From Gilliamella sp. ESL0405 (GTDB lineage: Bacteria > Pseudomonadota > Gammaproteobacteria > Enterobacterales > Orbaceae): DNA of 64,000 bases. This document shows positions 30,413 to 57,480 of this stretch, in pieces. The position numbers and the translations under genes are program-made. The stretch spans positions 1,612,001-1,676,000 of the forward strand of contig NZ_CP048265.1 in assembly GCF_019469205.1 (NCBI RefSeq). The letters are read 5' to 3'. Each line of letters opens with the position of its first letter. The first letter of the stretch is position 1. The notes under the pieces are model-generated. The model was not told the origin of the DNA, did no database searches, and worked only from the letters and a program-made list of their open reading frames with translations.

Positions 30413-30740
30413 GAGTAAAACGGCTTATGCAGCTTTAAAGAACGGAATTTATTGGGCAGACGATCGTACATTTTTCTAAACAGCTTATGCAGCTTTAAAG
30501 AATCACTCAAAAGAGTTGATTTATCTAAGCAATTTCTAAAAAGCTTACGCAGCTTTAAAGATAAAATCACAGGGTCAAAAGTTAATAGGCCATTTCTAAA
30601 CAGCTTATGCAGCTTTAAAGAAGTAATAGTCGATTACAGGGGAGTATACTATTTTCTAAACAGCTTATGCAGCTTTAAAGAGTTCGGTATGCGTACCTTT
30701 TCCGTCGTCGTTTTTCTAAACAGCTTATGCAGCTTTAAAG
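30413..30740 (-). CRISPR. CRISPR array 1 (type I-F-like, 6 repeats, 5 spacers)
   Basis: Repeats start at 30413 (degenerate), 30473, 30533, 30593, 30653 and 30713, exactly 60 bp apart: 28-bp repeat, 32-bp spacer. On the minus strand the repeat starts CTTTAA, carries AGCT-GCATA-AGCT and ends TTTAGAAA, the type I-F layout. The outermost pair of the usual 5-bp stem is a mismatch, so this array's repeat differs from arrays 2, 3, 5 and 7. The leader lies on the right (30741 onward), the degenerate end repeat on the left. Unlike most other arrays it has no tail module on its left; gloA is there. Confidence 0.95.
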
Positions 30741-30937
30741 TAGAATCCCACATACTATAAACACCGTTTATAAAAACACAAAGAGCAATTTTAAGTTTAA
30801 AAACCCTTTTTTCTAACACTTTTGCAATATATTGATTTTTAATGTTTTTATTTTTAGCTAAAAAAAAGGGTTTAAAAAGTTTGTATTTTGAACTCCATTA
30901 CTTTTTTCAAACGGCTTACCATGACCTTCCACAAAAA
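30741..30937 (-). promoter_or_regulatory. Leader of array 1 and AT-rich inverted repeat
   Basis: Directly right of the last repeat lies a conserved sequence with the inverted repeat TATAAAC-ACC-GTTTATA. On the minus strand it offers a -10-like TATAGT about 20 bp before the first repeat. Beyond it is a pair of arms AAACCCTTTTTT (30800-30811) and AAAAAAAGGGTTT (30861-30873). The same order recurs beside arrays 2, 3, 5, 6 and 7, which marks it as the leader side. Confidence 0.8.
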
Positions 30938-31202
30938 CAAACAAGTGCACCAACCCGCACCTTCACAAAGCGCCGACAACTGAGCGAGGTTAGCACGCCA
31001 AACAAGGATGTTTGGCGAGGCGCTGCTTTGTCAGGAACAAATCAGCGCCGGTGCGTTAAGACCGAACGAAGGCGGAGGGCAGTCGAAGACCGCTTTGGGT
31101 GGTGCTGCGAGGGGGTTATTAGGGGGATTTCGCATAAAATCCCCCTAATTCGGACGCTGACACCGTAATGAAAATATCAACCAATTAACAGCGTCCGAAA
31201 CC
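30938..31202 (+). repeat. GC-rich hairpin element, copy E1
   Basis: A ~265-bp dispersed repeat, far richer in GC than its surroundings. In this copy the hairpins are: CGCCAAACA-AGGA-TGTTTGGCG (30996-31017); GGCGCTG..CAGCGCC with an inner TTTGT/ACAAA (31019-31049); AGGGGGATTT-CGCATA-AAATCCCCCT (31121-31146); and TTCGGACGCTG..CAGCGTCCGAA (31149-31199). Frames open on both strands are not convincing as genes. Function unknown; a structured RNA or a MITE-like element are the main options. Confidence 0.85.
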
Positions 31203-31360
31203 TGCGGATTAAAAACCCGCAACTTACAAAGAAAGTAAAAACCTTGTCAAAAACTTTCAGAAAATATAGGTGTTTAAGCAAAAAACAAAGCGTTGACAAG
31301 AACTTCCAGAAAACACCCACGTTTAAGTATAAAAACAAAAGTTTTAGATATTTCAAAAAT
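31203..31360 (+). repeat. Tail module left of array 2
   Basis: Two related units 48 bp apart, starting TTGTCAAAAACTTTCAG (31244) and TTGACAAGAACTTCCAG (31292), then an AT-rich palindrome (about 31341-31369) with arms TTTAGATATTT and AAATATCCTAAA. The palindrome runs into the degenerate first repeat of the array. Confidence 0.8.
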
Positions 31361-31628
31361 ATCCTAAACCCCTTATGCAGCCGTGAAGTGAAAAAAATCT
31401 ATCGCACGAAGGTGATTGCTTTTCTAAACGGCTTATGCAGCCGTGAAGGCATAATCTATCCTATAGCGTGCTCTTTAAAATTTCTAAACGGCTTATGCAG
31501 CCGTGAAGGCGCAGCGAACGTGCATCGCTCGAAGACGTATTTTCTAAACGGCTTATGCAGCCGTGAAGCGGAAATTTTAAATTTGTCAGCGGTGCTTAGA
31601 TTTCTAAACGGCTTATGCAGCCGTGAAG
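31361..31628 (-). CRISPR. CRISPR array 2 (type I-F-like, 5 repeats, 4 spacers)
   Basis: Repeats start at 31361 (degenerate), 31421, 31481, 31541 and 31601 with a 60-bp period. The minus-strand repeat begins CTTCAC, has the stem CGGCT-GCATA-AGCCG at repeat positions 6-10/16-20 and ends TTTAGAAA. Stem and loop positions equal those of the E. coli type I-F repeat. Leader on the right, tail module on the left. No cas genes are nearby. Confidence 0.96.
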
Positions 31629-31827
31629 TAGAATCTCACATACTATAAACACCGTTTATAAAAACATAAAGGGCAATTTTAGGTTTAAAAACCCTTTTTT
31701 TTAGCGCCTTTACAATATATTGATTTTTAATGGTTTTATTTTTAGCAAAAAAAAAGGGGTTATAAAGTTTCTATTTTGAACTCCACTACTATTTCTAAAC
31801 GGCTTATCGTTGCCTTTCCCAAAAGCA
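31629..31827 (-). promoter_or_regulatory. Leader of array 2 and AT-rich inverted repeat
   Basis: Same sequence plan as the leader of array 1: TATAAAC-ACC-GTTTATA inverted repeat close to the first repeat, then AACCC(T)n and (A)nGGGGTT arms further right. On the array strand a TATAGT -10-like element lies near the repeat. Confidence 0.8.
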
Positions 31828-32090
31828 AACAAATGCACCAGACCGCACCTTCACAAAGCGCCGACAACTGAGCGAGGTTAGCACGCCAAACAAGGATGTT
31901 TGGCGAGGCGCTGCTTTGTCCGGAACAAATCAGCGCCGGTGCGTTAAGGCCGAACGAAGGCGGAGGGCAGTCGAAGACCGCTTTGGGTGGTGCTGCGAGG
32001 GGGTTATTAGGGGGATTTCGCACTAAATCCCCCTAATTCGGACGCTGACAGCAAAATGAAAATATCAACCAATTAACAGCGTCCGAAACC
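31828..32090 (+). repeat. GC-rich hairpin element, copy E2
   Basis: Second copy, nearly identical to E1 through all four main hairpins; the last hairpin carries a slightly different loop (GACAGC instead of GACACC). Same orientation and same position relative to a leader. Confidence 0.85.
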
Positions 32091-32248
32091 TACGGACTAA
32101 AAACTCGCAACTTTTAGAAAAATAAAAACTTTGTAAAAAACTTTCAGAAAATATAGGTGTTTAAGCAAAAACACAAAGCGTTGACAAGAACTTTCAGAAA
32201 ACACCCATGTTTAAGTATAAAAACAAAAGTTTTAGATATTTCAAAAAT
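32091..32248 (+). repeat. Tail module left of array 3
   Basis: Same two TTG(T/A)CAA..TTTCAG units and AT-rich palindrome as before array 2, with only scattered changes. Confidence 0.8.
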
Positions 32249-32575
32249 ATCCTAAACCCCTTTTGCAGCCATAAAAGGCTCTATCTTACGACAGATACAT
32301 ACGATTTTTTTTTAAGCGGCTTATGCAGCCGTGAAGCTAAAAATTTACAAGCGGTAACTGATTTACTTTTTCTAAACGGCTTATGCAGCCGTGAAGTGAA
32401 CACGGACGAAAAACCCCTGCTGCTGGCTTTTCTAAACGGCTTATGCAGCCGTGAAGGTTCAGCAATGAATAAACTTGCATGTTGGTTTTTTCTAAACGGC
32501 TTATGCAGCCGTGAAGTTAAAGAGGGTTAAACCCCTAAATATATAACTTTCTAAACGGCTTATGCAGCCGTGAAG
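32249..32575 (-). CRISPR. CRISPR array 3 (type I-F-like, 6 repeats, 5 spacers)
   Basis: Repeats start near 32249 (degenerate), 32309 (one variant: TTTTTAAGCGG), 32369, 32429, 32489 and 32548. The leader-proximal spacer (32517-32547) is 31 bp rather than 32. The stem is CGGCT/AGCCG. The oldest spacer (32277-32308) is nearly the same as the oldest spacers of arrays 4 and 6. Leader on the right, tail module on the left. Confidence 0.95.
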
Positions 32576-32772
32576 TAGAATCTCACATACTATAAACACC
32601 GTTTATAAAAACATAAAGGACAATTTTAGGTTTAAAAACCCTTTTTTCTAACACTTTTACAATGTATTGATTTTTAATGGTTTTATTTTTAGCTAAAAAA
32701 AAGGGTTTAAAAAGTTAGTATTTTAAACTCCACTACTTTTTTCAAACGGCTTACTATTACCTTTCGCAAAAA
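32576..32772 (-). promoter_or_regulatory. Leader of array 3 and AT-rich inverted repeat
   Basis: Same leader plan: TATAAAC-ACC-GTTTATA, then AAACCCTTTTTT and AAAAAAAGGGTTT arms. Confidence 0.8.
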
Positions 32773-33036
32773 CAAACAAGTGCACTAGATCGCACCTTCA
32801 CAAAGCGCCGACAACTGAGCGATGTTAGCACGCCAAACAAGGATGTTTGGCGAGGCGCTGCTTTGTCCGGAACAAATCAGCGCCGGTGCGTTAAGACCGA
32901 ACGAAGGCGGAGGGCAGTCGAAGACCGCTTTGGGCGGTGCTGCGAGGGGGTCATTAGGGGGATTTCGCACTAAATCCCCCTAATTCGGACGCAGACTCCG
33001 AAATGAAAATATCAACCAATTAACAGCGTCCGAAAC
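32773..33036 (+). repeat. GC-rich hairpin element, copy E3
   Basis: Third direct copy. The GGACGC stem is kept while the base next to it changes (GCAGAC instead of GCTGAC), and the pre-hairpin stretch has point changes. All main hairpins can still form. Confidence 0.85.
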
Positions 33037-33195
33037 CTACGGACTAAAAACCCGCAACTTTTAGAAAAATAAAAACCTTGTCAAAAACTTTCAGAAAATA
33101 TAGATGTTTAAGCAAAAACACAAACCACTGACAAGAACTTTCAGAAAACACCCACGTTTCAGTATAAAAACAAAAGTTTTAGATATTTCAAAAAT
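33037..33195 (+). repeat. Tail module left of array 4
   Basis: Two TTG(T/A)CAA..TTTCAG units and the AT-rich palindrome, as before arrays 2 and 3. Confidence 0.8.
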
Positions 33196-33463
33196 ATCCT
33201 AAACCCCTTATTAAGCCTTAAAGTGCTCTATCTTACGGCAGAAACATACGACTTTTTTCTAAACAGCTTATGCAGCCGTGAAGTGCGACCAGTCATGACT
33301 TCGGTTGCAAGTCTTTTTCTAAACGGCTTATGTAGCTGTAAAGAAAACAGAATTAAATTGATTAAATTTAGGGATTTTCTAAAAAGCTTATGCAGCTGTA
33401 AAGGATAATTCCACTCCAGCGCATCAACGGGTAGTGTCTAAACGGCTTTGTAAGCCTTGCGGT
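33196..33463 (-). CRISPR. CRISPR array 4 (decayed, 5 repeats, 4 spacers, no leader)
   Basis: Repeats at 33196 (degenerate), 33256, 33316, 33376 and 33436 (degenerate, with TTTGTAAGCC in place of TTATGCAGCC). The 60-bp period is intact but the internal repeats differ from one another (stems CGGCT, CAGCT and AGCTT mixtures). No leader or GC-rich element follows; the slyB terminator region does. It probably no longer acquires spacers. Confidence 0.88.
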
Positions 33464-33492
33464 GATTAGATAGGATAGCGTGTGACTGAGAA

Positions 33493-33526
33493 GCTTTCGC
33501 TCGAGGATAAAAGAGCGAAAGCTATT
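33493..33526. terminator. Strong hairpin between array 4 and slyB
   Basis: Perfect 10-bp stem GCTTTCGCTC / GAGCGAAAGC with a 10-nt loop; plus-strand side followed by TATTTTAC. It lies 23 bp past the slyB stop and may end slyB transcripts or shield the array. Confidence 0.6.
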
Positions 33527-33548
33527 TTACATGATAGTTAAAAATAGA

Positions 33549-34031
33549 TTAATCGTAACGCGGAGAGGCGCTAATACGTTTACCGTTAGTAACTAAACGA
33601 ACAGGTTGCCCGACGTAGAAATTTTTAACCGAGCCTTTTTGTATAATAACAATATTGGAATCACTATTTTTAGGTCTAATCTCTAATTCAACTGCATTTG
33701 CTTGATTTGCTTTATTTTCAATGGCATTACCCACTACCGCACCGCCGATAGCACCGGTTGCTGTTGCTAAAACACGACCTGTACCACCACCAACAGTATT
33801 ACCTAAAACACCACCAAGCACAGCACCACCAAGCGCACCGATTACATTTTGATTGTTACCGTTTGAATTTGCTTGAATTTTAACCGCTCTTACCGAAACA
33901 ACTGTACCATAACTGACATGTTGAACTTGTTTGGCTTGATCTGCTGTGTAAACATCGCCAGAATAGATATCACTATTGCTACATCCTGTAATTATTGTAG
34001 CTAAAATAGTTAGCGCGATGATCTTTTTCAT
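33549..34031 (-). CDS. slyB: Outer membrane lipoprotein SlyB (glycine-zipper)
   Basis: A 160-residue lipoprotein with lipobox ITGC (Cys about 17) and a glycine-zipper two-helix segment (about 64-105: VIGALGGAVLGGVLGNTVGGG, then ATGAIGGAVVGNAI). A C-terminal SH3-like part contains GQPVRLV. This matches SlyB/Pcp (E. coli SlyB 155 aa), an outer-membrane lipoprotein that stabilises the envelope; in enterics its gene is under PhoPQ control, but no PhoP box was identified here. Confidence 0.92.
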   Translation of the reverse strand: MKKIIALTILATIITGCSNSDIYSGDVYTADQAKQVQHVSYGTVVSVRAVKIQANSNGNNQNVIGALGGAVLGGVLGNTVGGGTGRVLATATGAIGGAVVGNAIENKANQANAVELEIRPKNSDSNIVIIQKGSVKNFYVGQPVRLVTNGKRISASPRYD

Positions 34032-34198
34032 ATTGAATTCCTCATATAGATTGAGATTATTTTTTTATAACATCATAAGGATAATATTGTTTTATCAAAA
34101 CAACAACATGATTTTCATTATTTTAGCATTCGACAATACAATTTATGGCTAACTTGAGTTATACTCGTTTAATAGTTTATCTACCATACAATAAGTAT

Positions 34199-34384
34199 AT
34201 GAAACGGTTATTTTTTCAAATAGTATTATCGGTTATGATAACCGCCTGTCACGAAGTTAATGAAAAGCAGACAAATAAAGAGGCAACAATTGCTGAGCCA
34301 CCCAGCTCAGATTGTTTAAATGATAAACCAGCAAACCATTTAGATCTGAACAACCTTCCAGTAGAAAGTTGTCCGGTTAACTAA
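34199..34384 (+). CDS. Small lipoprotein of unknown function
   Basis: A 61-residue product from the ATG at 34199 (a frame is open from 34145, but the signal sequence begins MKRLFFQIVLSVMITAC). Lipobox ITAC gives a lipid anchor; the mature peptide is short and polar, with Cys in DCLND and SCPVN. It lies 21 bp before seqA on the same strand. No family recognised. Confidence 0.6.
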   Translation: MKRLFFQIVLSVMITACHEVNEKQTNKEATIAEPPSSDCLNDKPANHLDLNNLPVESCPVN

Positions 34385-34405
34385 TTTAATAGGCATATGT
34401 AACTA

Positions 34406-34909
34406 ATGAAGACTATCGAAATCGACGAAGAACTATACCAATTTATTGCAGGTCAAACTAAACATATTGGCGAAGATGCATCGAGTATTTTACGGCGTTT
34501 ATTGAATATCAATCAAACTTCACCGGCTAAACAAAATCAACTATCGAATTCAGATAATCACTATCCTATATTCAATAATTTATTGACTAGTGAAACGTTT
34601 ACCAACGAAAAATCAATTATTAGTCGCTTTTTATTATTATTAGGTGCGCTTTATAACTACAACCCCGCACTCTTTGCAATTGCAGCAACCTCTTTACACG
34701 GCAGCAAAAGACAATATTTGGCTAAAGACAAAGAGTCATTAGAAACATCGGGAAAAAATACCAAACCACGAGAAATCGTCGGTACTCCTTATTGGGTTAT
34801 CAGTAATACCAATACGGCTAGAAAAATTTATATTATTGAATCAATCATGAGTGATATGGGCATATCAGAAAACATGATTAATCAAGTTATTAATGTTTTT
34901 TTACCCTAA
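34406..34909 (+). CDS. seqA: Negative modulator of replication initiation SeqA
   Basis: SeqA binds hemimethylated GATC sites and sequesters oriC. The 167-residue protein (E. coli 181) begins with the multimerisation domain MKTIEIDEELYQFIA and SSILRRLL. After a variable linker comes the DNA-binding domain with NEKSIISRFLLLLGALYNYNP, then RQYLAKDKESLE, GTPYWVISNTNT and ENMINQVINVFL. It is followed by pgm, the enteric order, and implies Dam methylation in this organism. Confidence 0.95.
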   Translation: MKTIEIDEELYQFIAGQTKHIGEDASSILRRLLNINQTSPAKQNQLSNSDNHYPIFNNLLTSETFTNEKSIISRFLLLLGALYNYNPALFAIAATSLHGSKRQYLAKDKESLETSGKNTKPREIVGTPYWVISNTNTARKIYIIESIMSDMGISENMINQVINVFLP

Positions 34910-35000
34910 AATGAAAGGCTAAAAGCACTCTATCGAGTTGTTCACTGTTTGACAGGTTTAGCAAAATATAAAAATACTATATATGAAAAAGGAGTATAAA

Positions 35001-36638
35001 ATGGCAAAGCAAAGCCGCGCGGGATTACTAGCTGAAGCTTCTGACCTTATTAATGTTGAAACTTTAAAAAATAACTATTATCAGATCAAACCGGATACGG
35101 ATGATGCTAGCCAATTAGTTATTTTTGGAACATCTGGTCATCGTGGTAGTTCTAATAAAGGGACGTTTAACGAAGCCCACATTTTAGCCGTTGCCCAAGC
35201 AATTGCCGAATATCGCAAAGCCAATAATATCACAGGGCCTTGCTTTATTGGTCAAGATAGCCATGCTTTGTCTGAACTTGCTTTAAAAAGTGTACTTGAA
35301 GTATTTGTTGCCAATGAACAAACAGTGGTTATGGCTCGTGATTGGGGTTATACGCCAACGCCGGTTATTTCACACGCAATTTTAACTTACAATCAAGGCC
35401 GAACAGCGCAACTTGCTGACGGTATTGTCATTACGCCTTCCCACAATCCACCGGAAGACGGCGGGATAAAATATAATCCAACCAATGGTGGACCAGCCGA
35501 TACCGACATCACCAAACAGATCGAAAATCGAGCGAATGAATTACTCAAAAGCCAATTAAACGGCGTTAAACGTGTCAGCTTAGAAAAGGCGCTGAATTCA
35601 GATTATCTTCACACCAAAGAGTACGAGACCGATTATATTAATGATCTGGAAAATATCGTTGATATGTCATTAATTCAATCCTCTTCGCTACGTATTGGTG
35701 TTGACCCGCTAGGTGGCGCAAGCGTCACTTATTGGCCACGCATTGCTGAAAAATATGGCATCAATCTGGATATCGTTAATGATAAAGTCGATCCAACCTT
35801 TAGCTTTATGCATCTTGATCATGACGAAGTCATCAGAATGGATTGTTCAAGCCGTTGGGCAATGGCTGGCTTACTGAAGTTAAAAGATCAATTTGACCTC
35901 GCCTTTGGTAATGATACCGATTCGGATCGACATGGCATTGTTACGCCAAAAGGCTTGATGAATCCAAATGCCTACCTTTCAGCGTGTGTGAATTATCTAT
36001 TTCAAAACCGCCCGCAATGGCATAAAGATATCGCTATCGGTAAAACCTTAGTCACCAGCTCAATGATTGATCGGGTGGCAAATAGCTTACATAAAACCTA
36101 TTTAGAGTATCCGGTTGGTTTTAAATGGTATGCTGACGGACTGTATAACGGTCAGTTAGGCTTCGCCGGTGAAGAGAGTGCGGGCGCATCATTTTTACGC
36201 ACTAACGGTAAAGTTTGGGCGACCGATAAAGACGGTATTATTTTATGCTTACTAGCAGCAGAAATGACAGCAAAAACCGGTAAAAATCCACAAGAGCAAT
36301 ACCAAACTCTGGAAGATAAATTTGGTGTCTCTTATTACGGTCGAATTCAAGCTCCGGCAACCTTTAGCGAAAAACAAAAGTTATCTAAACTTGATGCAAG
36401 CCAATTAACCACCGATACCTTAGCGGGTGAAAAAATCACGCAATGTTTAACAACTGCGCCGGCTAACAATGCACCGATTGGCGGACTGAAAGTGATGACA
36501 GAAAACGGCTGGTTTGCCGCTCGCCCGTCTGGCACCGAAGATGCTTATAAAATTTATACTGAAAGCTTTATCAGTAATGAGCACTTAGCAACGTTGCAGG
36601 AAGAAGCACAGGAAATTGTCGCTAAAGCGATTAAGTAG
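35001..36638 (+). CDS. pgm: Phosphoglucomutase (alpha-D-glucose 1,6-bisphosphate type)
   Basis: Pgm interconverts glucose 1-phosphate and glucose 6-phosphate. The ATG at 35001 follows AAGGAG and gives 545 residues (E. coli 546); an open frame from 34983 is not needed. Motifs: [10 protein letters not shown] (about 45), the phosphoserine loop [12 protein letters not shown] (about 145), metal loop [12 protein letters not shown] (D-x-D-x-D variant; E. coli has NDPDYDRHG), the sugar loop [10 protein letters not shown], and the phosphate loop [11 protein letters not shown]. It follows seqA; on its right begin inverted copies of the GC-rich element. Confidence 0.96.
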
Positions 36639-36641
36639 CAC

Positions 36642-36750
36642 CGCCTAAAGCGGTCTTGCGACCGCCCTCAGCCTTCGTTCAGTCTTAACGCACCGGCGCT
36701 GATTTGTTCATGACAAAGCAGCGCCTTGCTAAACATCTTTGTTTGGGTTG
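36642..36750 (-). repeat. GC-rich hairpin element, partial inverted copy E9
   Basis: A shortened, diverged copy in reverse orientation, beginning 4 bp after the pgm stop. It keeps the ACCGC..GCGGT pair, the GCGCTGATTTGTTCATGACAAA..-type hairpin and TTGCTAAACATCTTTG-like loop, but lacks the AGGGGG and CGGACGC hairpins and the distal part. Confidence 0.65.
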
Positions 36751-36836
36751 TGTTTTTTACTTAAACACCTATGTTTTCTGAAACTTTTTGACAAGGATTT
36801 TTACTTTCTTCGAAAGTTGCAGGTTTTTAGTCCGCA
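36751..36836 (-). repeat. Inverted tail module 1 (single unit, no array)
   Basis: Read on the minus strand, one unit TTGTCAAAAAGTTTCAG with the GGTGTTTAAG end. No palindrome and no CRISPR repeat is attached. Confidence 0.65.
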
Positions 36837-37103
36837 GGTTTCGGACGCTATTAATTTGTCGATATTTTCATTACGGCGTCTGCGTCCGAATTAGGGGGAT
36901 TTTGTGCGAAATCCCCCTAATAACCCCCTCGCAGCACCACCCAAAGCGGTCTGGCGACTGCCCTCCGCCTTCGTTCGGTTTTGACGCACCGGCGCTGATT
37001 TGTTCCTGACAAAGCAGCGCCTCGCCAAACATCCTTGTTTGGCGTGCTAACCTCTCTCAGTTGTCGGCGCTTTGTGAAGGTGCAATCTGGTGCACTTGTT
37101 TGC
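36837..37103 (-). repeat. GC-rich hairpin element, inverted copy E7
   Basis: Complete copy in reverse orientation with the AGGGGGATTT and CGCCAAACA hairpins. The CGGACGC hairpin remains as CGGACGC on both arms, but the neighbouring bases differ. No leader or array follows it. Confidence 0.8.
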
Positions 37104-37139
37104 TTTTGTGATATGCAACGATTTGGGTTAGTAAATAGT

Positions 37140-37297
37140 TTAAAAATCTCTTAGACTTTTGTTTTTATACTGAAATGTAGGTGTTTTCTGAAACTTTTTG
37201 TCAATGTTTTGTGTTTTTACCTAAACACCTATATTTTCTGAAACTTCTTTACAAGGTTTTATACTTTAATTGAAAGTTACAGGTTTTTGGTTTGTAG
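37140..37297 (-). repeat. Inverted tail module 2 (two units, no array)
   Basis: On the minus strand the two units TTGTAAAGAAGTTTCAG and TTGACAAAAAGTTTCAG-like appear in the same order and spacing as left of the arrays. No array or intact palindrome lies between this tail and E7. Confidence 0.7.
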
Positions 37298-37562
37298 GTT
37301 TCGGACGCTGTGAATTAGTCGATATTTTCATTACGGTGTCTGCGTCCGAATTAGGGGGATTTTGTGCGAAATCCCCCTAATAACCCCCTCACAGCACCGC
37401 CCAAAGCGGTCTTCGACTCCCCTCCGCCTTCGTTCGGTTTTGACGCACCGGCGCTGATTTGTTCCTGACAAAGCAGCGCCTCGCCAAACATCCTTGTTTG
37501 GCGTGCTAACCTCACTTAGTTGTCGGCGCTTTGTGAAGGTGCAATCTGGTGCACTTGTCTGT
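37298..37562 (-). repeat. GC-rich hairpin element, inverted copy E8
   Basis: Complete inverted copy with all four main hairpins, including CGGACGCTG..C(T)GCGTCCG. A small deletion near the GTCTTCGACT segment is the main difference. Confidence 0.8.
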
Positions 37563-37574
37563 TTTTGAGGAAGG

Positions 37575-37725
37575 GAATGGTATGGGTTTTGGGATATTTT
37601 GGAAATATCTAAAACTTTTGTTTTTATACTAAAACACAGGTGTTTTCTGAAACTTTTTGACAAGGCTTTGTGTTTTTGCTTAAACACCTATATTTTCTGA
37701 AAGTTTTTGACAAGGATTTTCGTTA
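37575..37725 (-). repeat. Inverted tail module 3 with palindrome, array missing
   Basis: On the minus strand this reads two TTGTCAAAAA(C/G)TTTCAG-type units, then the AT-rich palindrome (GATATTT-CC-AAAATATC), then ATCCCAAAACCCATACC, which resembles the degenerate end repeat of an array. Element E8 follows directly: the place where an array and leader would be is empty. Confidence 0.75.
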
Positions 37726-37837
37726 ATACCAACTTGACTATTATTCTTCTGTTTGGGGAGTTTTGAGTAAATTAGGTGTTTTAGTATTTTGGGAATGCTG
37801 TTGGGATCTATTTAACAAGATTAAAAACTGATTTTTT

Positions 37838-37872
37838 ACTAAAACGCGGGTATTCTCTGAAACTTCTTAACA
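37838..37872 (-). repeat. Solitary tail unit beside guaB
   Basis: On the minus strand TTGTTAAGAAGTTTCAG with an ATACCCGCGTTTTAGTAAAA-like end: one more single tail unit, immediately downstream of the guaB terminator. Confidence 0.6.
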
Positions 37873-37900
37873 AAAAGCAAATCCATTTGGATTTGCTTTT
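37873..37900 (-). terminator. guaB terminator
   Basis: Stem AAAAGCAAATCC / GGATTTGCTTTT with a 4-nt loop, followed on the minus strand by TTGTT; 20 bp past the guaB stop. Confidence 0.85.
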
Positions 37901-37919
37901 GTGGTTTAAAGTGTGCTTA

Positions 37920-39386
37920 TTAAGCACCAGCACGGTAATTAGGTGGCTCTTTGGTGATGAGAACATCATGTACATGGCTCTCTTTCATACCAGCACCTGT
38001 GATGCGATAGAATTTTGATTGTGTACGTAGGGCTTCTATCGTTGCACAACCGGTTAAGCCCATGCAAGAACGTAAGCCGCCCATTTGTTGATGTATGATC
38101 TCTTTTAACATGCCTTTATAAGCAATGCGCCCTTCTATCCCTTCTGGTACTAATTTATCGGCTGCATTGTCGGATTGGAAATAGCGGTCAGATGAGCCTT
38201 TTGCCATTGCGCCAAGTGATCCCATACCCCGATAAGATTTATAAGCACGACCTTGAAATAGTTCGATTTCGCCCGGTGCTTCTTCAGTGCCGGCAAACAT
38301 TGAGCCAACCATAACGCACGATGCGCCGGCGGCAATGGCTTTTGCAATATCACCGGAAAAACGGATACCGCCATCGGCAATCACAGGAATATTATATTTT
38401 TGAGCCATTCCTACCGCATCCATAATGGCACTTATTTGAGGCACCCCAACACCTGTGACGATACGGGTAGTACAAATTGAACCGGGACCAATACCCACTT
38501 TAACCGCACTTACGCCAGCTTCAATTAATGCTTTAGCCCCTTCAGCAGTTGCCACATTGCCCCCGATAATTTGTAAATCAGGGAAAGCTTGTCGAGTTTG
38601 ACGGATACGCTCTAAGACCCCTTCTGAATGCCCGTGTGAGGAATCAATCAACAACACATCAACCCCTGCTTCAACTAATGCCGCAATTCGCTCTTCATTA
38701 CCGGCACCAGCACCAACCGCTGCGCCAACACGTAAACGACCTTTCTCGTCTTTACAAGCATTTGGTTTTTGTTCAGCTTTATTATAGTCTTTAACTGTGA
38801 TCATACCTTTTAAATGGAATTTATCATCCACCACCAGTACTTTTTCAACCCGATGTTCATGCATTTTTTTAAGCACGATTTCACGCTTTTCACCCTCTTT
38901 AACCGTAACTAAACGCTCTTTTGGCGTCATAACTGCGGTTACTGGTAAAGAGAGATCGGTAGCAAATCGCACATCACGAGCAGTAATAATCCCGACTAAC
39001 TCTTGCGACTGCGTAATCACCGGAAAACCGGCAAAGCCATACTCTTTTGCCAGATCGATAACTTGCTTAATGGTTGCAGTTGGAAGAACTGAGACCGGAT
39101 CTTGCACAATCCCGCTTTCATGTTTTTTAACTCGCCTAACATGATTAGCTTGCGCCTCGATCGGCATATTTTTATGAATAAAACCAATACCACCTTCTTG
39201 CGCTAAGGCAATGGCTAAATCAGATTCAGTAACCGTATCCATCGCTGCTGACAGCATCGGAATATTTAATCTAATGGTTTGGGTAAGCTCAGTGCTGATA
39301 TCAGCAGTATTGGGTAAAACAGTTGAATGAGCAGGAACTAATAAAACATCATCGAACGTGAGGGCTTCTTTTACTATACGAGACAT
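37920..39386 (-). CDS. guaB: IMP dehydrogenase GuaB
   Basis: GuaB oxidises IMP to XMP with NAD+, the first committed step to GMP. The ATG at 39386 gives 488 residues, the E. coli length, starting [21 protein letters not shown]; an open frame to 39401 is not needed. The TIM barrel is interrupted by two CBS domains (about 95-200). The catalytic loop [11 protein letters not shown] carries the active Cys (about 305). The flap has SDRYFQ, and the C-terminus [11 protein letters not shown]. guaA, its usual partner, is not in the window. Confidence 0.96.
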
Positions 39387-39619: not shown

Positions 39620-39753
39620 AATTAAAAAATCTCGTCAAGAAATTTCAGAAAATATAATTGATTAAGAAAAAAACTCAAAACATTGACAAAAAGTTTCAGA
39701 AAACACCTACGTTTAAGTATAAAAACAAAAGTTTTAGATATTTTCAAATATAT
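39620..39753 (+). repeat. Tail module left of array 5
   Basis: Two units beginning near 39632 (TCGTCAAGAAATTTCAG, diverged) and 39684 (TTGACAAAAAGTTTCAG), then the AT-rich palindrome. No GC-rich element precedes it, so this tail begins a new cluster of modules. Confidence 0.75.
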
Positions 39754-40381
39754 ATCCTAAACCTTTTATGCAGCGTAAAAGAGTTGCTCCAGCGTGGGGG
39801 GAAAGCGTGGGCATTTCTAAACGGCTTATGCAGCCGTGAAGGCGAACTATACAGAAAAATTACTTTTTCTAGATTTCTAAACGGCTTATGCAGCCGTGAA
39901 GGAGGATAGACATACATAACTAAATCAGGATTGTTTCTAAACGGCTTATGCAGCCGTGAAGGTATTGTTCGAGTGAGTGTTTTATTAACGGAGTTTCTAA
40001 ACGGCTTATGCAGCCGTGAAGTATTCTGGTAGACAGTTCATAAGAACTTACAGTTTCTAAACGGCTTATGCAGCCGTGAAGATAGAAATACCCGTTCTTC
40101 CTATGTTGCGTCCTTTCTAAACGGCTTATGCAGCCGTGAAGCTGATGACTGGTTACATTTTGATTTAGCGCTATTTCTAAACGGCTTATGCAGCCGTGAA
40201 GTTGCAAATGCTGAATTTGAAATGATTTCAGGTTTTCTAAACGGCTTATGCAGCCGTGAAGTCTGCATAGAACCGCATCTACTACTACGGGCTTTTCTAA
40301 ACGGCTTATGCAGCCGTGAAGGCTGAAAAAAATATTAAATAATAAAGCCAACATTTCTAAACGGCTTATGCAGCCGTGAAG
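39754..40381 (-). CRISPR. CRISPR array 5 (type I-F-like, 11 repeats, 10 spacers; the largest)
   Basis: Repeats start every 60 bp from 39754 (degenerate) to 40354. From 39814 on they are identical over the 28 bp, stem CGGCT-GCATA-AGCCG. The left end repeat lacks part of the stem (CAGCGTAAAAG). Leader on the right from 40382. Uniform repeats and the greatest length suggest the most recently active array here. Confidence 0.97.
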
Positions 40382-40577
40382 TAGAATCCCACATACTATA
40401 AACATCGTTGATAAAAACATAAAGGACAATTTTAGGTTTAAAAACCCTTTTTTTTAACGCTTTTACAATACATTGATTTTTAATAGTTTTATTTTTAGCT
40501 AAAAAAAAGGGTTTAAAAAGTTTGTATTTTGAACTTCATTACTAATTCTAAACTATTAACCATTACCTTTCCCAAAA
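40382..40577 (-). promoter_or_regulatory. Leader of array 5 and AT-rich inverted repeat
   Basis: Same plan as the other leaders, but one arm base of the inverted repeat is changed (CATCGTTGATA). The adjoining stretch to the GC-rich element is almost the same as that of array 6, more so than of arrays 1-3. Confidence 0.8.
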
Positions 40578-40842
40578 GCAAACAAGTGCACCAGACCGCA
40601 CCTTCACAAAGCGCCGACAACTGAGAGAGGTTAGCACGCCAAACAGGGATGTTTGGCGAGGCGCTGCTTTGTCCGGAACAAATCAGCGCCGGTGCGTTAA
40701 GACCGAACGAAGGCGGAGGGCAGTCGAAGACCGCTTTGGGCGGTGCTGCGAGGGGGTCATTAGGGGGATTTCGCACTAAATCCCCCTAATTCGGACGCTG
40801 ACACCGTAATGAAAATATCAACCTATTAACAGCGTCCGAAAC
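40578..40842 (+). repeat. GC-rich hairpin element, copy E4
   Basis: Complete direct copy; CGCCAAACA-GGGA-TGTTTGGCG has G in place of A in the loop, a change shared only with E5. All hairpins intact. Confidence 0.85.
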
Positions 40843-41000
40843 TTGCAGATCAAAAACATGCAACTTTTATAAAAGTAAAAACCTTGTCAAAAAGTTTCAG
40901 AAAATATAGGTGTTTAAGCAAAAACACAAAACATTGCCAAAAACTTTCAGAAAACACCTACGTTTTAGTATAAAGCAAAAGTTTTAGATATTTCAAAAAT
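40843..41000 (+). repeat. Tail module left of array 6
   Basis: Units TTGTCAAAAAGTTTCAG and TTGCCAAAAACTTTCAG, then the AT-rich palindrome. Confidence 0.8.
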
Positions 41001-41387
41001 ATCCTAACCCCCTTATTAAGCCTTAAAGCGCTCTATCTTACGGCAGAAACATACGACTGTTTTCTAAACAGCTTATCCAGCTTTAAAGGATCTAACAACA
41101 GAAAAAACTTCACGAGAATTTTCTAAACAGCTTATGCAGCTGTAAAGGTACGGGCAGGACTTTGCCCGAAGTGGTGATCTTTCTAAACAGCTTATGCAGC
41201 TGTAAAGATTGGTACGGCGTTAACGCTGTGAATGCGGTTTTTCTAAACAGCTTATGCAGCTGTAAAGAATTGCTACGACTTTAGCCATTTTTGATAAATT
41301 TTCTAAACAGCTTATGCAGCTGTAAAGACTGAATAATCAATATCATTATATACCTCGCGTTTCTAAACAGCTTATGCAGCTGTAAAG
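41001..41387 (-). CRISPR. CRISPR array 6 (type I-F-like, 7 repeats, 6 spacers)
   Basis: Repeats start at 41001 (degenerate), 41061, 41120, 41180, 41240, 41300 and 41360; spacer 2 (41089-41119) is 31 bp. The stem here is CAGCT-GCATA-AGCTG: both arms changed together relative to CGGCT/AGCCG, keeping pairing. The degenerate end repeat and oldest spacer nearly equal those of array 4. Leader on the right. Confidence 0.96.
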
Positions 41388-41584
41388 TAGAATCTCACAT
41401 ACTATAAACATCGTTTATAAAAACATAAAGAGCAATTTTAGTTTTAAAAACCCTTTTTTTTAACGCTTTTACAATACATTGATTTTTAATAGTTTTATTT
41501 TTAGCTAAAAAAAAGGGTTTAAAAAGTTTGTATTTTGAACTTCATTACTAATTCTAAACTATTAACCATTACCTTTCCCAAAAG
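41388..41584 (-). promoter_or_regulatory. Leader of array 6 and AT-rich inverted repeat
   Basis: Leader with TATAAAC-ATC-GTTTATA, then AAACCCTTTTTTTT and AAAAAAAAGGGTTT arms; almost the same as leader 5. Confidence 0.8.
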
Positions 41585-41848
41585 CAAACAAGTGCACCAG
41601 ACCGCACCTTCACAAAGCGCCGACAACTGAGAGAGGTTAGCACGCCAAACAGGGATGTTTGGCGAGGCGCTGCTTTGTCCGGAACAAATCAGCGCCGGTG
41701 CGTTAAGACCGAACGAAGGCGGAGGGCAGTCGAAGACCGCTTTGGGTGGTGCTGCGAGGGGGTTATTAGGGGGATTTCGCACCAAATCCCCCTAATTCGG
41801 ACGCAGACACCGAATTGAATATATCAACCAATTACAGCGTCCGAAACC
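41585..41848 (+). repeat. GC-rich hairpin element, copy E5
   Basis: Complete direct copy close to E4, with changes in the final hairpin loop. It ends about 38 bp before the gntT stop and no tail module follows; the module is cut off here. Confidence 0.85.
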
Positions 41849-48505: not shown

Positions 48506-49378
<873 letters not shown>

Positions 49379-49512: not shown

Positions 49513-49550
49513 TAGCTTCCTTGAATAAAAGGGAGCTGGGTTTTTTTTTG
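49511..49550 (+). terminator. Attenuator terminator ahead of bglF
   Basis: Stem CCTAGCTTCC / GGGAGCTGGG (with G-T pairs) followed by nine T residues, 20 bp before bglF. It overlaps the RAT by two bases and is the terminator that BglG would override. Confidence 0.9.
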
Positions 49551-49567
49551 CATAAAAATAAGGATAA

Positions 49568-52891
<3,324 letters not shown>

Positions 52892-52895
52892 CACT

Positions 52896-52927
52896 AGCCC
52901 GATAGCCTAAGTTATGGGCTATCGGCT
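52896..52927 (+). terminator. Terminator-like hairpin after bglA
   Basis: AGCCCGATAGCC paired with GGGCTATC-GGCT (one bulge) around an 8-nt loop, just past the bglA stop. No long T-run. Confidence 0.55.
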
Positions 52928-52989
52928 TACCAATCTTTTTCGCATCAAGCGCAAAGGATCGAAAAATTAAACCGGATGAATAAATTGTT

Positions 52990-53184
52990 ATGGAACAACA
53001 AACCGAAAGCCGATCGATAGCTGCTTTAAATAACGCCAAAAGGGGAAATACCAGCGACTTGCAGATTATCGAAAGCTTGAAAGTACAGACAAAGATTAGG
53101 AAGTCGCATCATCCGGTTATTTACCAGCAATGGGCAAATGCAGCAAGTTTAGCGCCGATGATCTCAATCGATCATAGCGACTAA
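52990..53184 (+). CDS. Doubtful small ORF between bglA and the porin gene
   Basis: A 64-codon frame without hydrophobic segment, family resemblance or clear ribosome site. The region between bglA and the porin (52928-53373) is otherwise empty. It is listed because it is the only frame of this size there; it may be noise or the trace of an ancient gene. Confidence 0.15.
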   Translation: MEQQTESRSIAALNNAKRGNTSDLQIIESLKVQTKIRKSHHPVIYQQWANAASLAPMISIDHSD

Positions 53185-53373
53185 AAAACGTTGCATTAAA
53201 CACTCGTTAACATAAGGCAAGAACAGACAAAAAACAGGTAAACACATCGCACGAATCAATTTTATCTTGAATGATGACTGCACTTAGCAGATAACACCTT
53301 AATCCTAACTTAAGGAGTTAGCCCTCTCACAAGTTGGCATTTAGGTTTATTTTAGGAAACAAGGACAAAGGAT

Positions 53374-54711
53374 ATGACGACAAAACTGAAATACCTACCA
53401 CTGGCACTTTTAAGCCTACTGAGCTGTTCAGTACTGGCCAATGACGTAAGTTCATCAGCCGGTATGTTCGATAATCACTTTTTTAACGATAGCAAGCTCG
53501 ATTTTTCCACCCGTAATCATTGGAAATACTTAAAAGAGAACGCATCCCAACCCAAAGAAGTTCACAGCGCTTGGGGGCAAGCATTTACCCTCAATTATAA
53601 ATCGGGATACCTATTTGATACCCTAGGTTTTGATGTCACTTATGACAATGTGATAAAACTTGGCGCAAGTGACTACTTTGCCACCCGTAATTTACTGTAT
53701 AACGACGGCAAAGGCTACAGCAAACATAACGCCCACGGATTTAATAAATTCACCCAGCGCTATATCAAAATCAAACTGGGAAATGACAACATCAAATTCA
53801 ACGGTAAAGTTGGCTGGCAAAGTTTAAAAGATCTGGGCATTATCAGCTCATCCCAGCATTTAACTCGTAACAGCTACCTCGGTTACAGTGGGATTTTTAA
53901 CGTTGACAAGCTCGCTTTCTCATTTGCTCGGATTAACAGTGCCTTTCCCCGTGAATCAGCCCAAAAACTGCATTTTATGAGTAATGATCGCAAAAGTGTC
54001 ATCGACCATATCTCAACGGCTGAAATCGCTTATCAAGATAGCACCACAAAAATCGACTACTCATATGGTGTCGCTAAAGACTATTTAAGACGTCATGCTA
54101 TTGAGCTAACTTACAAGCCAACCAACAAATTAACCTTAGGCTCGCAGTTATACGGTAGTTATGCTTTAAAAAATTATGATGCCATGTCAAAAAGCAAAAA
54201 AGAGTTTGAAGATCACGCATGGCACTATGCCGCCGATGCCCAATGGAAAGAAGATGATTGGAGCGTCAAACTCGGTCTGGCTTATACCGATGCCAACAAA
54301 CATAATGCAATTGGCTTTTACGGTCGACATCTAGGCAAAAATACCCGTGGACGCTTTAACGGACTTGCCGCCGCCGGGGCTGATTATATGCGAGATGGCG
54401 AACTGGTATTATCAGCGGTATTAGGTTACGACTTTGTGCAAGATAACACTACCGGTTTGTATATGAATTACGGCAGATTTAACTATAAACACCAAACCCT
54501 AAAAAACGGTGAAATTAACGTCTTTAATATCTTTAAACCGACCAGTGGCACTTTCAAAAACTTATCGATTTTAGCTAAAGCAGGTTATGGCTGGTCATAC
54601 AAAACAATCAGCAGTTCTGATGTCACCCCAAAACTCAGAGACGGCAAAGCACAACGCTCACCAACGCTATCGGCTGAAACCGTGATTGATTATCGATTTA
54701 ATTTATTTTAA
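53374..54711 (+). CDS. OprD-family outer membrane porin
   Basis: A 445-residue outer-membrane protein with a signal peptide (cleavage likely after VLA, about residue 22), alternating aromatic beta-strands throughout, and a C-terminal ...YRFNLF ending in Phe, the outer-membrane assembly signal. The pattern resembles OprD/ChiP porins for sugars and small solutes. Lying directly after the bgl genes on the same strand, it may admit beta-glucosides or their oligomers; that link is inference. A separate promoter is likely in the ~480-bp gap. Confidence 0.85.
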   Translation: MTTKLKYLPLALLSLLSCSVLANDVSSSAGMFDNHFFNDSKLDFSTRNHWKYLKENASQPKEVHSAWGQAFTLNYKSGYLFDTLGFDVTYDNVIKLGASDYFATRNLLYNDGKGYSKHNAHGFNKFTQRYIKIKLGNDNIKFNGKVGWQSLKDLGIISSSQHLTRNSYLGYSGIFNVDKLAFSFARINSAFPRESAQKLHFMSNDRKSVIDHISTAEIAYQDSTTKIDYSYGVAKDYLRRHAIELTYKPTNKLTLGSQLYGSYALKNYDAMSKSKKEFEDHAWHYAADAQWKEDDWSVKLGLAYTDANKHNAIGFYGRHLGKNTRGRFNGLAAAGADYMRDGELVLSAVLGYDFVQDNTTGLYMNYGRFNYKHQTLKNGEINVFNIFKPTSGTFKNLSILAKAGYGWSYKTISSSDVTPKLRDGKAQRSPTLSAETVIDYRFNLF

Positions 54712-54726
54712 GAAAAGGATGAAAGT

Positions 54727-55491
54727 ATGAAAAAAATTATCAAACTTATCAGTATTGTCGTTGTGGCAGCCTCTTTAGCATCGCAAGCCTTTGCGCAAGA
54801 GGTCAACTTATATTTTACTCGTCATGGTAAAACAATGTTTAACAACGTACATCGTGCTCAAGGCTGGTCTGACACACCATTAACCAAACCGGGGATTGAA
54901 GTAGCACAGCAACTTGGACGCGGATTAGGCGATATGAAATTTATTGCAGTTTACTCAAGCGATCTAGGACGAGCAAGACAAACTGCCCGCATCATTTTAG
55001 AAACCAAAGGCGATCCGATAAACATAAACGAAATGGAAGCACTACGAGAAACCTGTTTTGGTGACTTCGAAGGTGATCTCGATCCCAACATGTGGACGCC
55101 CGCTGCTCAGCATTTAGGCTACGAATCGGATAAAGCGTTAATGGAAGATTTTGGTAAAGGAAAAATCACCTTAAACAAAATGATGGATGCCATTGCAGCA
55201 GTTGAAAAATCCGGCGAAGCGGAAAATTACAATAAAGTCAAAACACGTATGCAAACCGCATTAAAAGCTATTGCAAAACAAGCACAAGCGCAAGGCGGTG
55301 GTAACGTATTAGTTGTGACTCATGGCATGGCGATCATGGCAATGGTCGAAGAGATGCAAGACCAACCGATTACCGCCGGATTAGGTAACGCCAGTGTGAC
55401 CAAAATTCGCTACACCGACGACGGTAAATTTATCGTAGAAAGTTTAGGCGACATGAGCTACGTAGAAAAAGGCAAAACCTTAAGCAAGTAA
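54727..55491 (+). CDS. Exported histidine phosphatase
   Basis: A 254-residue branch-1 histidine phosphatase. The N-terminal signal peptide (cleavage after AFA, about residue 23) directs it to the periplasm. The catalytic RHG lies at residues 32-34 (TRHGKT), with the second His at 199 in VTHGMA and a glutamate in ALRETCFGDFEG. It follows the porin gene by 15 bp, so the two are likely co-transcribed. The physiological substrate is unknown; a role in removing phosphate from imported sugar phosphates is only a guess from context. Confidence 0.88.
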   Translation: MKKIIKLISIVVVAASLASQAFAQEVNLYFTRHGKTMFNNVHRAQGWSDTPLTKPGIEVAQQLGRGLGDMKFIAVYSSDLGRARQTARIILETKGDPININEMEALRETCFGDFEGDLDPNMWTPAAQHLGYESDKALMEDFGKGKITLNKMMDAIAAVEKSGEAENYNKVKTRMQTALKAIAKQAQAQGGGNVLVVTHGMAIMAMVEEMQDQPITAGLGNASVTKIRYTDDGKFIVESLGDMSYVEKGKTLSK

Positions 55492-55803
55492 AAAGTACAA
55501 TAACCAATGGCTCACACCAGTGAGTCATTGACTTATCAGCCAAAACCGCCGAACTCTCACCACCAATAAAATCGCAGACCGCATACTTTTCTTATTGCAC
55601 TCATATTATGCTGGATAATAAAAGCGTTTATTGATTATTGTTCTGCTGGCAGTTATAGCGATAGCGTTAATCAAATAATCAAAATAAAAAGATATCAAAC
55701 ACCAATAATCTTCTTTCATAAAAAATAAAAAACAAACCACCTTAATCTTAAGATCAGGCTATAATAACTTGCCAACAGCTAATCTAGATAACAAGGAAAG
55801 ATC
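55492..55803. other. Intergenic region between the histidine phosphatase gene and ogt
   Basis: This 312-bp AT-rich gap holds a terminator-like hairpin at 55507-55528 and presumably the ogt promoter. I see no coding frame or other feature in it. Confidence 0.5.
55507..55528 (+). terminator. Hairpin after the histidine phosphatase gene
   Basis: ATGGCTCAC-ACCA-GTGAGTCAT, 15 bp after the stop. Moderately stable, no T-run. Confidence 0.5.
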
Positions 55804-56349
55804 ATGTACTACTCGACCAACTACACCTCACCAATGGGCAACATCACCCTAGCTAGTCATCAAAATAAATTAGTTGGTGTATGGATTGAAGGACAAAAAT
55901 ATTTTGGCGATATGGCGGTAAAAAAGTGGCAAGAACAAGCAAATTTAGCGATCTTTAATCAAACCAAACATTGGTTAGATGACTATTTTGCCGGCAAAAA
56001 CCCCGCTATCAACCAATTACCACTAGCCCCAAAAGGCACCCCGTTTCGCTATTTAGTTTGGGATATCTTATGTAAAATCCCTTATGGACAACTTATCACC
56101 TATGGCGACATAGCCAAACAAATCGCATCAGCGCTAAATAAACAACAGATGTCCAGCCAAGCGGTTGGTGGCGCAGTCGGACACAACCCAATCTCAATCA
56201 TCATCCCCTGCCACCGAGTGATAGGAACAAACGGCAACCTAACCGGCTATGCAGGCGGCATCGATAAAAAAATAAAATTACTGCAAATTGAAGGCGTAGA
56301 CACCAGCAACCTAACCCTACCCCGACAACCAAACACCCCAGAAAAATAA
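55804..56349 (+). CDS. ogt: Methylated-DNA-protein-cysteine methyltransferase (Ogt-type)
   Basis: A suicide repair protein that moves alkyl groups from O6-alkylguanine or O4-alkylthymine to its own cysteine. The 181-residue product has the active-site IIPCHRVIG with Cys136, the DNA-binding helix segment PYGQLITYGDIAKQIA (about 97-112), and the GAVGHNPI turn. An N-terminal domain starts YYSTNYTSPMGNITLA. Length fits Ogt rather than the Ada fusion. It neighbours CRISPR array 7. Confidence 0.95.
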   Translation: MYYSTNYTSPMGNITLASHQNKLVGVWIEGQKYFGDMAVKKWQEQANLAIFNQTKHWLDDYFAGKNPAINQLPLAPKGTPFRYLVWDILCKIPYGQLITYGDIAKQIASALNKQQMSSQAVGGAVGHNPISIIIPCHRVIGTNGNLTGYAGGIDKKIKLLQIEGVDTSNLTLPRQPNTPEK

Positions 56350-56463
56350 AACCACACAAACTAACCGGCACAACACCAAAACCAAAACTTTATCGCAAAG
56401 TCACAACCAGCGATAAAGTTAACCAACCCAAAATCACCAAAACAACCACGATACCAAAAACCC

Positions 56464-56534
56464 GCCTTGACAAAAACTTTCAGAAAAAACCCATGTTTAA
56501 GTATAAAAACAAAAGTTTTAGATATTTCAAAAAT
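56464..56534 (+). repeat. Tail module left of array 7 (single unit)
   Basis: Only the second tail unit (TTGACAAAAACTTTCAG at 56467) is present, with the AT-rich palindrome. The first unit and any GC-rich element to the left are missing. Confidence 0.75.
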
Positions 56535-56862
56535 ATCCTAAACCCCTTATACAGCCGTGAAGTTTCGCTACCGCTCGACAATAAAGACGCTTCCTTTCTA
56601 AACAGCTTATGCAGCCGTGAAGAGGCATTTTTTAATGCTGTGAATCTTGATGCTTTTCTAAACGGCTTATGCAACCGTGAAGTGGTTGTAGATGTTCATG
56701 TTGAAATGAATGACTTTCTAAACGGCTTATGCAGCCGTGAAGTGATTTATATTGTGTTAATATGTTACCTTAGATTTCTAAACGGCTTATGCAGCCGTGA
56801 AGATATACTTCATAAAGTAAAATTATTACTAAATTTTCTAAACGGCTTATGCAGCCGTGAAG
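56535..56862 (-). CRISPR. CRISPR array 7 (type I-F-like, 6 repeats, 5 spacers)
   Basis: Repeats start at 56535 (degenerate), 56595 (CAGCT on one arm), 56655 (GCAACCG variant), 56715, 56775 and 56835 with a 60-bp period; the last three are the standard CGGCT/AGCCG form. Leader on the right from 56863. It lies about 15 kb from array 6, in the same orientation. Confidence 0.96.
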
Positions 56863-57058
56863 TAGAATCTTATATACTATAAACATCGTTTATAAAAACA
56901 CAAAGATCAATTTTAAGTTTAAAAACCCTTTTTTCTAACGCTTTTGCAATATATTGATTTTTAATGTTTTTATTTTTAGCTAAAAAAAAGGGGTTAAAAA
57001 GTTTGTATTTTGAACTCCATTACTTTTTTCAAACGGCTTACCATGACCTTTCCCAAAA
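56863..57058 (-). promoter_or_regulatory. Leader of array 7 and AT-rich inverted repeat
   Basis: Same leader plan, with TAGAATCTTATATACTATAA next to the repeat, TATAAAC-ATC-GTTTATA, and AAACCCTTTTTT / AAAAAAAGGGGTT arms. Confidence 0.8.
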
Positions 57059-57323
57059 GCAAACAAATGCACCAACCCGCACTTTCACAAAGCGCCGACA
57101 ACTGAGCGAGGTTAGCACGCCAAACAAGGATGTTTGGCGAGGCGCTGCTTTGTCCGGAACAAATCAGCGCCGGTGCGTTAAGACCGAACGAAGGCGGAGG
57201 GCAGTCGAAGACCGCTTTGGGTGGTGCTGCGAGGGGGTTATTAGGGGGATTTCGCATAAAATCCCCCTAATTCGGACGCAGACACTGAAATGAAAATATC
57301 GACCAATCAACAGCGTCCGAAAC
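57059..57323 (+). repeat. GC-rich hairpin element, copy E6
   Basis: Complete direct copy with all four hairpins; closest to E1 in the leader-side flank (CATTACTTTTTTCAAACGGC). Confidence 0.85.
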
Positions 57324-57480
57324 TTGCGTACAAAAAACGTGCAACTTACAAAAAAAGTAAAACCTTGTCAAAAAGTTTCAGAAAATATAGGTGTTTAAGC
57401 AAAAAACACAAACCATTGTCAAGAACTTTCAGAAAACACCCACATTTCAGTATAAAACCACCGTTTTAAAAACCGTAATT
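57324..57480 (+). repeat. Tail module right of E6, with no array after it
   Basis: Units TTGTCAAAAAGTTTCAG (57366) and TTGTCAAGAACTTTCAG (57417) in normal spacing, then AT-rich sequence (TTTTAAAAACC repeats) leading to the lysO stop. No palindrome or CRISPR repeat is recognisable, so a module boundary lies here. Confidence 0.7.

Follow-up and report, generated by a model that had tools for sequence, protein, structure and literature searches.

This study asks how a single bacterial chromosome comes to hold some 21 arrays of clustered regularly interspaced short palindromic repeats (CRISPR), and which cas genes could serve them. The question was raised by a window of 64,000 nucleotides from the bee-gut-type bacterium Gilliamella sp. 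ESL0405 (bases 1612001–1676000 of a 2.81-Mb chromosome, in a single-contig genome), in which an earlier note, made from the sequence alone, had described seven cas-less type I-F-like arrays embedded in a multiplied repeat module. The parts considered here are the array, its leader, a GC-rich structured element (G), a part designated P, and a repeat of about 42 bp (T). Taken as a whole, the evidence makes it likely that the arrays became numerous by duplication of array-bearing units, with one cas operon acting in trans.

Arrays, repeats and spacers were counted by script in the window and in loci fetched from the rest of the genome. In the window the counts agreed exactly with the earlier ones, 7 arrays that together hold 46 repeats and 39 spacers, and the common orientation and the 60-bp repeat period were also borne out. 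All arrays are on the minus strand, that of the CRISPR RNA (crRNA): array 1 at 30413–30740 (6 repeats, 5 spacers), array 2 at 31361–31628 (5 and 4), array 3 at 32249–32575 (6 and 5), array 4 at 33196–33462 (5 and 4), array 5 at 39754–40381 (11 and 10), array 6 at 41001–41387 (7 and 6) and array 7 at 56535–56862 (6 and 5), the last starting 15.1 kb past array 6 and so lying as far from the rest as had been claimed. A degenerate repeat pattern allowing up to 2 mismatches gave 113 matches in the genome versus 0 for the reversed control, which excludes a chance origin of the repeats. As the assembly consists of one contig and the spacers differ between arrays, it is very unlikely that the layout is a misassembly of one array.

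The repeats are 28 nt long with a 5-bp stem, as judged by eye, and the spacers 32 nt, as in type I-F systems. The stem (CGGCT/AGCCG), previously attributed to the repeats in general, was seen in the common repeat and in array 6, but in the repeat of array 1 an outer A-G mismatch leaves 4 bp. The Rfam model CRISPR-DR4 covered the whole common repeat at 31.2 bits (last repeat of array 2, minus strand), under the gathering score of 35, which is exceeded by the arrays of G005, a relative belonging to a second species. Leaders were matched on the minus strand beside six of the seven arrays, at 30741–30882 (array 1, with the consensus for integration host factor, IHF), 31629–31770 (array 2), 32576–32716 (array 3), 40382–40523 (array 5), 41388–41529 (array 6) and 56863–57004 (array 7). 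The leader is therefore not shared by all arrays, as had been thought, since array 4 lacks both a leader and a G element after it. The AT-rich inverted repeat formerly counted as a separate part of the module is actually within the leader, and the recurring order of parts has exceptions, in that no tail lies upstream of array 1 and the G-P unit that follows array 6 breaks off at about 41862.

Genome-wide, the fetched loci yielded 22 repeat groups, comprising 155 repeats and 133 spacers; 20 leaders were matched in the genome (24 candidates being scored out of 66 from a first look), and leader-bearing modules occupied 8 loci on both strands. Two of the groups, 59108 (one repeat plus leader) and 59619, look like halves of one array 483 bp apart, so the number of arrays is about 21 rather than 22. 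The 483 bp (59136–59618 of the chromosome) stand between two CRISPR repeats in the place of a spacer, and contain one reading frame with what we take to be a resemblance to a fragment of a Mu-type phage virion protein.

A search of the genome for cas genes showed that the term cas-less does not apply. A complete type I-F set (cas1, cas2-3 and csy1-4) is located at about 2.048–2.058 Mb, 0.4 Mb away, with two arrays adjoining it; its open frames matched Pfam Cas1, Cas3_I-F_Cas2 and Csy1-4, all above cut-off, and its cas8f has its nearest named relatives in Gilliamella, with 69% identity in Gilliamella apis and 65% in Gilliamella sp. wkB108. Csy2 was matched nowhere in the genome but in that operon, which agrees with the report of no cas gene in the 64 kb as far as Csy2 is concerned, the window not having been searched for each cas gene. 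Orphan arrays in a genome without cas genes were thus rejected as an explanation. The single operon, going by the sequence, probably serves the approximately 21 arrays in trans, in which case the distant arrays would be transcribed and processed. Among 35 genomes of the genus, leader matches were found in 23 and Csy2 in 21. Five genomes had leader-like matches and no Csy2 match (G004, G011, G024, G025 and G026); the match in G011 was weak, and G004 and G024 were 81% and 67% complete, respectively.

The history of the arrays was read from their spacers, two spacers being considered similar when they differed by at most 9 mismatches. Between arrays, 28 similar pairs were found, 23 of which link leader-distal spacers. 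The oldest (leader-distal) spacer is held in common by 13 repeat groups, which fall into three families of 5, 3 and 5; window arrays 3, 4 and 6 end in the spacer of family A. According to the available part of PMC12814883, the last spacer is the more likely one to be common to arrays of somewhat distant ancestry. In the neighbouring arrays 1708374 and 1709324, four of five spacers are common (spacers 2–5, three identical and one with one mismatch) and the leader-proximal spacer 1 differs; by its sequence, this pair goes back to a recent duplication, after which each array acquired spacers separately. Because the oldest spacers are common and the newest differs in the near-identical pair, we conclude that whole arrays were duplicated and then grew separately. 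This upholds the proposal that the copied unit takes in the array itself and more than its flanks. A comparable situation was observed in G005, where two arrays about 72 kb apart are identical in their oldest spacer and are flanked by G in the same way, and another two have a non-oldest spacer in common. Separately, spacer 7 of array 1651754 and spacer 4 of the distant array 371492 were identical except for the first base and had different neighbouring spacers, which could mean that one target was captured on two occasions.

We propose that a unit consisting of array, leader and G element, with T repeats at its edges, was duplicated in tandem repeatedly and then spread to other loci, every copy retaining the old array end and the leader and later acquiring spacers of its own. 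The T repeats would serve as crossover points, either for unequal recombination or for replication slippage between direct repeats of about 42 bp, and the dispersed loci could have arisen by ectopic exchange between units.

T is an interspersed repeat with 236 copies in the genome by pattern search (96 and 140 by strand; control, 0), and at least one copy was present in 20 of the 35 genus genomes, this one included. In the window, pairs of T repeats about 50 bp apart (T1-T2) precede array 2 (31244–31334), array 3 (32129–32222), array 4 (33078–33169), array 5 (39634–39724) and array 6 (40884–40974), all on the plus strand. The unit of array 7 is bounded on both sides, by a T copy at its left edge (56467–56508) and a T1-T2 pair at its right edge (57365–57457), also on the plus strand; by reading, four of the eight array loci have T at both ends. 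In 18 stretches of the genome around single or paired T copies, the flanks were unrelated, except for two pairs in short tandem duplications.

Seven tandem clusters without CRISPR, made of 74–141-bp units with T between the units, were also seen (for example, at 1122967–1124344 of the chromosome). The units between successive T copies were alike within a cluster (median identity 0.84–0.93) and unlike between clusters (0.49–0.65, where lengths allowed comparison), and T likewise separates the G units and the array units. These clusters were chosen for close-lying matches and their units defined by T, which counts against the proposal inasmuch as the choice itself partly ensures that T stands at the junctions; it is the cluster edges that provide the test. 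Past the outermost T, likeness did not exceed the background maximum of 0.72 on either side in five of the six clusters testable at both edges. Three of the five are clear-cut, and two have one edge at 0.70–0.72, which slightly weakens the case. In the sixth cluster only one edge was within background and the other was at 0.78, and the seventh, testable on one side, failed at 0.95. Edges of this kind are expected if T copies recombine with one another, and we infer that T acts as a recombination hinge. The suggestion that a structured repeat dispersed the arrays is retained insofar as a repeat does lie at the unit boundaries, but that repeat is the short T; the structured, GC-rich G is a passenger, amplified with the array and also alone.

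The features of T could also be those of a recombinase or transposase site, with the array module as a mobile element whose units move as excised circles or cassettes and not by homologous exchange. T is self-contained, with its 42 bp or so set in unrelated flanks, it bounds very different cargo, and leader-bearing modules are found at 8 loci on both strands. We nevertheless regard a mobile element as unlikely, since the 8 open reading frames (ORFs) of at least 100 aa inside the window units had no Pfam match, none of 10 neighbouring ORFs matched a recombinase or transposase, the search for an empty site with a single T gave none, and plain recombination between direct repeats yields the same T-(unit-T)n layout.

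Several features of the leaders and spacers bear on whether the distant arrays work. In 18 of the 20 leaders the perfect IHF consensus WATCAANNNNTTR stands at a distance of about 97 bp from the repeat, compared with 1.8% of base-shuffled leaders; the two leaders without it are a truncated one and one adjoining cas. When 37 of the 39 window spacers were searched against the 35 genus genomes, 13 matches outside the own genome were obtained, and the 11 with a fetched locus all had 5 mismatches or fewer. CC is the protospacer adjacent motif (PAM) of type I-F, and it was found directly 5′ of the protospacer at 9 of these 11 sites, which represent seven distinct spacers, five of them with CC. The matched spacers come from arrays 1, 5, 6 and 7. 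Seven protospacer genes were scanned, of which four matched named phage families (helicase/primase, transcriptional regulator, baseplate and tail sheath), one matched a phage family of unknown function and two matched none. The own-genome spacer matches listed (11 of 16 candidates scored) were all in arrays, and self-targeting is still possible.

If the distant arrays were functionless relics, the missing leader of array 4, the degenerate terminal repeats and the array broken by 483 bp would be expected signs of decay. Such a state is, however, highly improbable given that the leader-proximal repeats are nearly uniform within arrays, that even duplicates which are almost the same have different newest spacers, that the IHF motif is kept in most leaders, and that spacers of four window arrays match other Gilliamella loci, several in phage-like genes.

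Known phages were also considered as targets and none was clear. With the 2137k locus, 50 phage records were matched. Of these, 47 were Vibrio phage records with 67–75% matches over the repeats of one array, two of them annotated as a CRISPR-Cas locus, and 3 were Flavobacterium phage records with one 28-base match (E 0.09), taken as marginal.

Further observations weigh against duplication of linked units as the full account. No spacers were shared within the 11 arrays fetched from the relative G030 or the 5 from the relative G032, so the oldest-spacer pattern is not universal. Across 18 modules the divergence of the leader was not significantly correlated with that of G (r = 0.17, a value equalled or exceeded in 384 of 5000 permutations), and neither correlated with the divergence of the P-T part. 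Strict co-evolution of leader and G is thus not supported by the distance correlations; the modules cannot be strictly linked, clonal units, and exchange or gene conversion must be added to the explanation, with module copies probably swapping parts, to judge by their sequences. At 3 mismatches no T was detected in G005 and G030, both of which have dispersed arrays and tandem G; since tandem G occurs next to leaders in these genomes, T is neither the sole route nor needed for multiplication in the genus. A clean empty site was not found, the orthologues of the gene beside array 7 in 11 relatives having neither T nor a shared neighbour within the flanks retrieved, which reached up to 1.5 kb per side. 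The cas-adjacent leader at 2048147 is the sole untruncated leader without the perfect IHF consensus. Finally, no known phage was matched by window arrays 1–4, 5–6 and 7 or by loci 370k and 1707k (the 59k and 2047k arrays were left out), and three exact spacer pieces had no match among viral contigs. The cas-adjacent leader was also observed to be without a G element.

In comparison with type I-F systems having more than one array, the present one agrees in the 28-bp repeat, the mostly 32-bp spacers, cas1, cas2-3 and csy1-4, a leader with an IHF site and an inverted repeat, and the CC PAM. Inverted-repeat motifs in I-F leaders and the role of IHF are treated in the available part of a preprint (PMC12259127). 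The system differs in having about 21 arrays for a single operon. The type of immunity is ordinary I-F, and it is the number of arrays, the T hinge and the partnership with G that are unusual. Among the titles listed in a literature search, for which coverage was mostly open-access, none dealt with multiplied Gilliamella arrays or with a CsrA element coupled to CRISPR arrays, and the accessible portions of PMC12586679 and PMC10259446 do not describe multiplied arrays. Overlap between spacers is the usual basis for guesses at the origin of extra arrays. In the present genome some 21 arrays have kept ancestral spacers, flanks and a likely hinge repeat, making the birth of arrays directly open to study. 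If the role proposed for T is true, a short interspersed repeat would multiply immune memory without multiplying cas genes.

G, the third unusual feature, is a TwoAYGGAY-like structured element, located on the plus strand of the window at 30932–31162, 31816–32050, 32763–32996, 40569–40803, 41575–41809 and 57050–57284. In the fetched own-genome loci 37 copies were found, by a pattern that includes a CsrA-type hairpin and allows up to 10 mismatches, so that copies without the hairpin may be missed. G lies beside 19 of the 20 leaders. Among relatives, 9 of the 11 leaders examined in G030 (12 matches) have G 187–271 bp away on the leader-distal side, and G005 has it 220–233 bp from 3 of 10 leaders, both inverted with respect to the own genome; G032 has it at 0 of 6 leaders examined (8 matches), and G023 has G matches and no leader match. 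These differences mean that the partnership of G and array, though recurrent, is not universal and has no fixed orientation.

The module is also present without arrays, in an inverted tandem of G-P-T units at 36637–37873 (minus strand, opposite to the G elements above) and in clusters elsewhere. Such tandems might be an older satellite between whose units CRISPR arrays were inserted or caught, the number of arrays then following the expansion of the satellite. Roughly half of the G copies are array-free (37 copies versus 19 leaders with G), and where tandems lack arrays, G comes almost immediately after the tail. On the other hand, G stands beside leaders in the opposite orientation in G005 and G030, and the leaders of G032 indicate that arrays disperse without G. 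We hold an older satellite to be possible but doubtful; as an origin story it is compatible with duplication of array-bearing units.

The CsrA-type hairpin may point to a connection between G and the Csr system. Its loop keeps GGA in 17 of 17 copies of a second alignment, and the loop motif ACARGGATGT was present in 35 of the 37 own copies, 17 of 19 in G005 and 31 of 33 in G030. As RNA, ACARGGAUGU fits the consensus RUACARGGAUGU obtained with CsrA by systematic evolution of ligands by exponential enrichment (SELEX), as given in the available part of PMC4347634, and one CsrA match was found in the genome. RNAs that titrate CsrA or RsmA (CsrB/C and RsmX/Y/Z) likewise carry GGA in hairpin loops; unlike them, G occurs in dozens of copies, is known here from sequence alone, and was empty in the promoter scan, a consensus scan of one unit that gave no sigma-70 promoter. 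One intrinsic terminator, at chance level, was found in the one unit scanned. Control of CRISPR-Cas by Rsm/Csr has been described in Serratia, with types I-E, I-F and III-A named (PMC8450108, available part); the difference is that its abstract mentions no physical link between arrays and a Csr element. Because Rsm/Csr control of I-F is known in Serratia, a functional link between G and CRISPR is worth testing, no more. A bold reading by analogy, to which we give little credence, is that G is transcribed, soaks up CsrA and relieves Csr repression of cas, each duplicated array raising the dose of its own activator. If that were true, T-bounded amplification would tune spacer capacity together with cas expression, and the alternation of G and arrays would be selected and not accidental. 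In any case, the presence beside the arrays of an RNA-like G with a CsrA-type site provides a way to test whether CRISPR is linked to carbon-storage regulation.

The structure of G was derived with RNAalifold from 19 diverse copies and comprised 37 base pairs. Twelve of the 37 pairs were changed on both sides, versus a mean of 6.5 in shuffled alignments, none of 500 of which reached this number; a measure of further pair types was not above the shuffles (306/500). When the pairing partners were slid, pairing fell from 96.9% to 36–47%, a control biased in favour of the structure, as the latter came from the same alignment. Seven of the 12 doubly changed pairs are in one long hairpin, and the CsrA-type hairpin has 1 and is otherwise mostly invariant. 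No match of G was found in the plasmid or phage collection, and an origin as a plasmid or phage element was rejected. Against the Rfam family TwoAYGGAY (RF01731; Weinberg 2010, PMC2864571, available part), G scored 42.2–42.4 bits in the own genome (42.2 at 31879–31948 of the window) and 35–41 in relatives, below the gathering score of 43. Conversely, a model built from G (R1) was matched by 35 of the order's 394 genomes, of which 20 belong to Gilliamella, and in 5 of 114 genera, with loci in another genus of the order; in six of nine fetched R1 loci outside Gilliamella, Rfam named TwoAYGGAY at 57–68 bits. A simple repeat script detected no CRISPR-like array in those nine loci. With homology seen from both directions, G is, on sequence grounds, a relative of TwoAYGGAY and is not classed as a member; it differs in falling just under the curated threshold, in its tandem arrangement with T and in its position beside CRISPR leaders. 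In another genus of the order, TwoAYGGAY was found several times within a few kb, and the family may be a repeat element generally.

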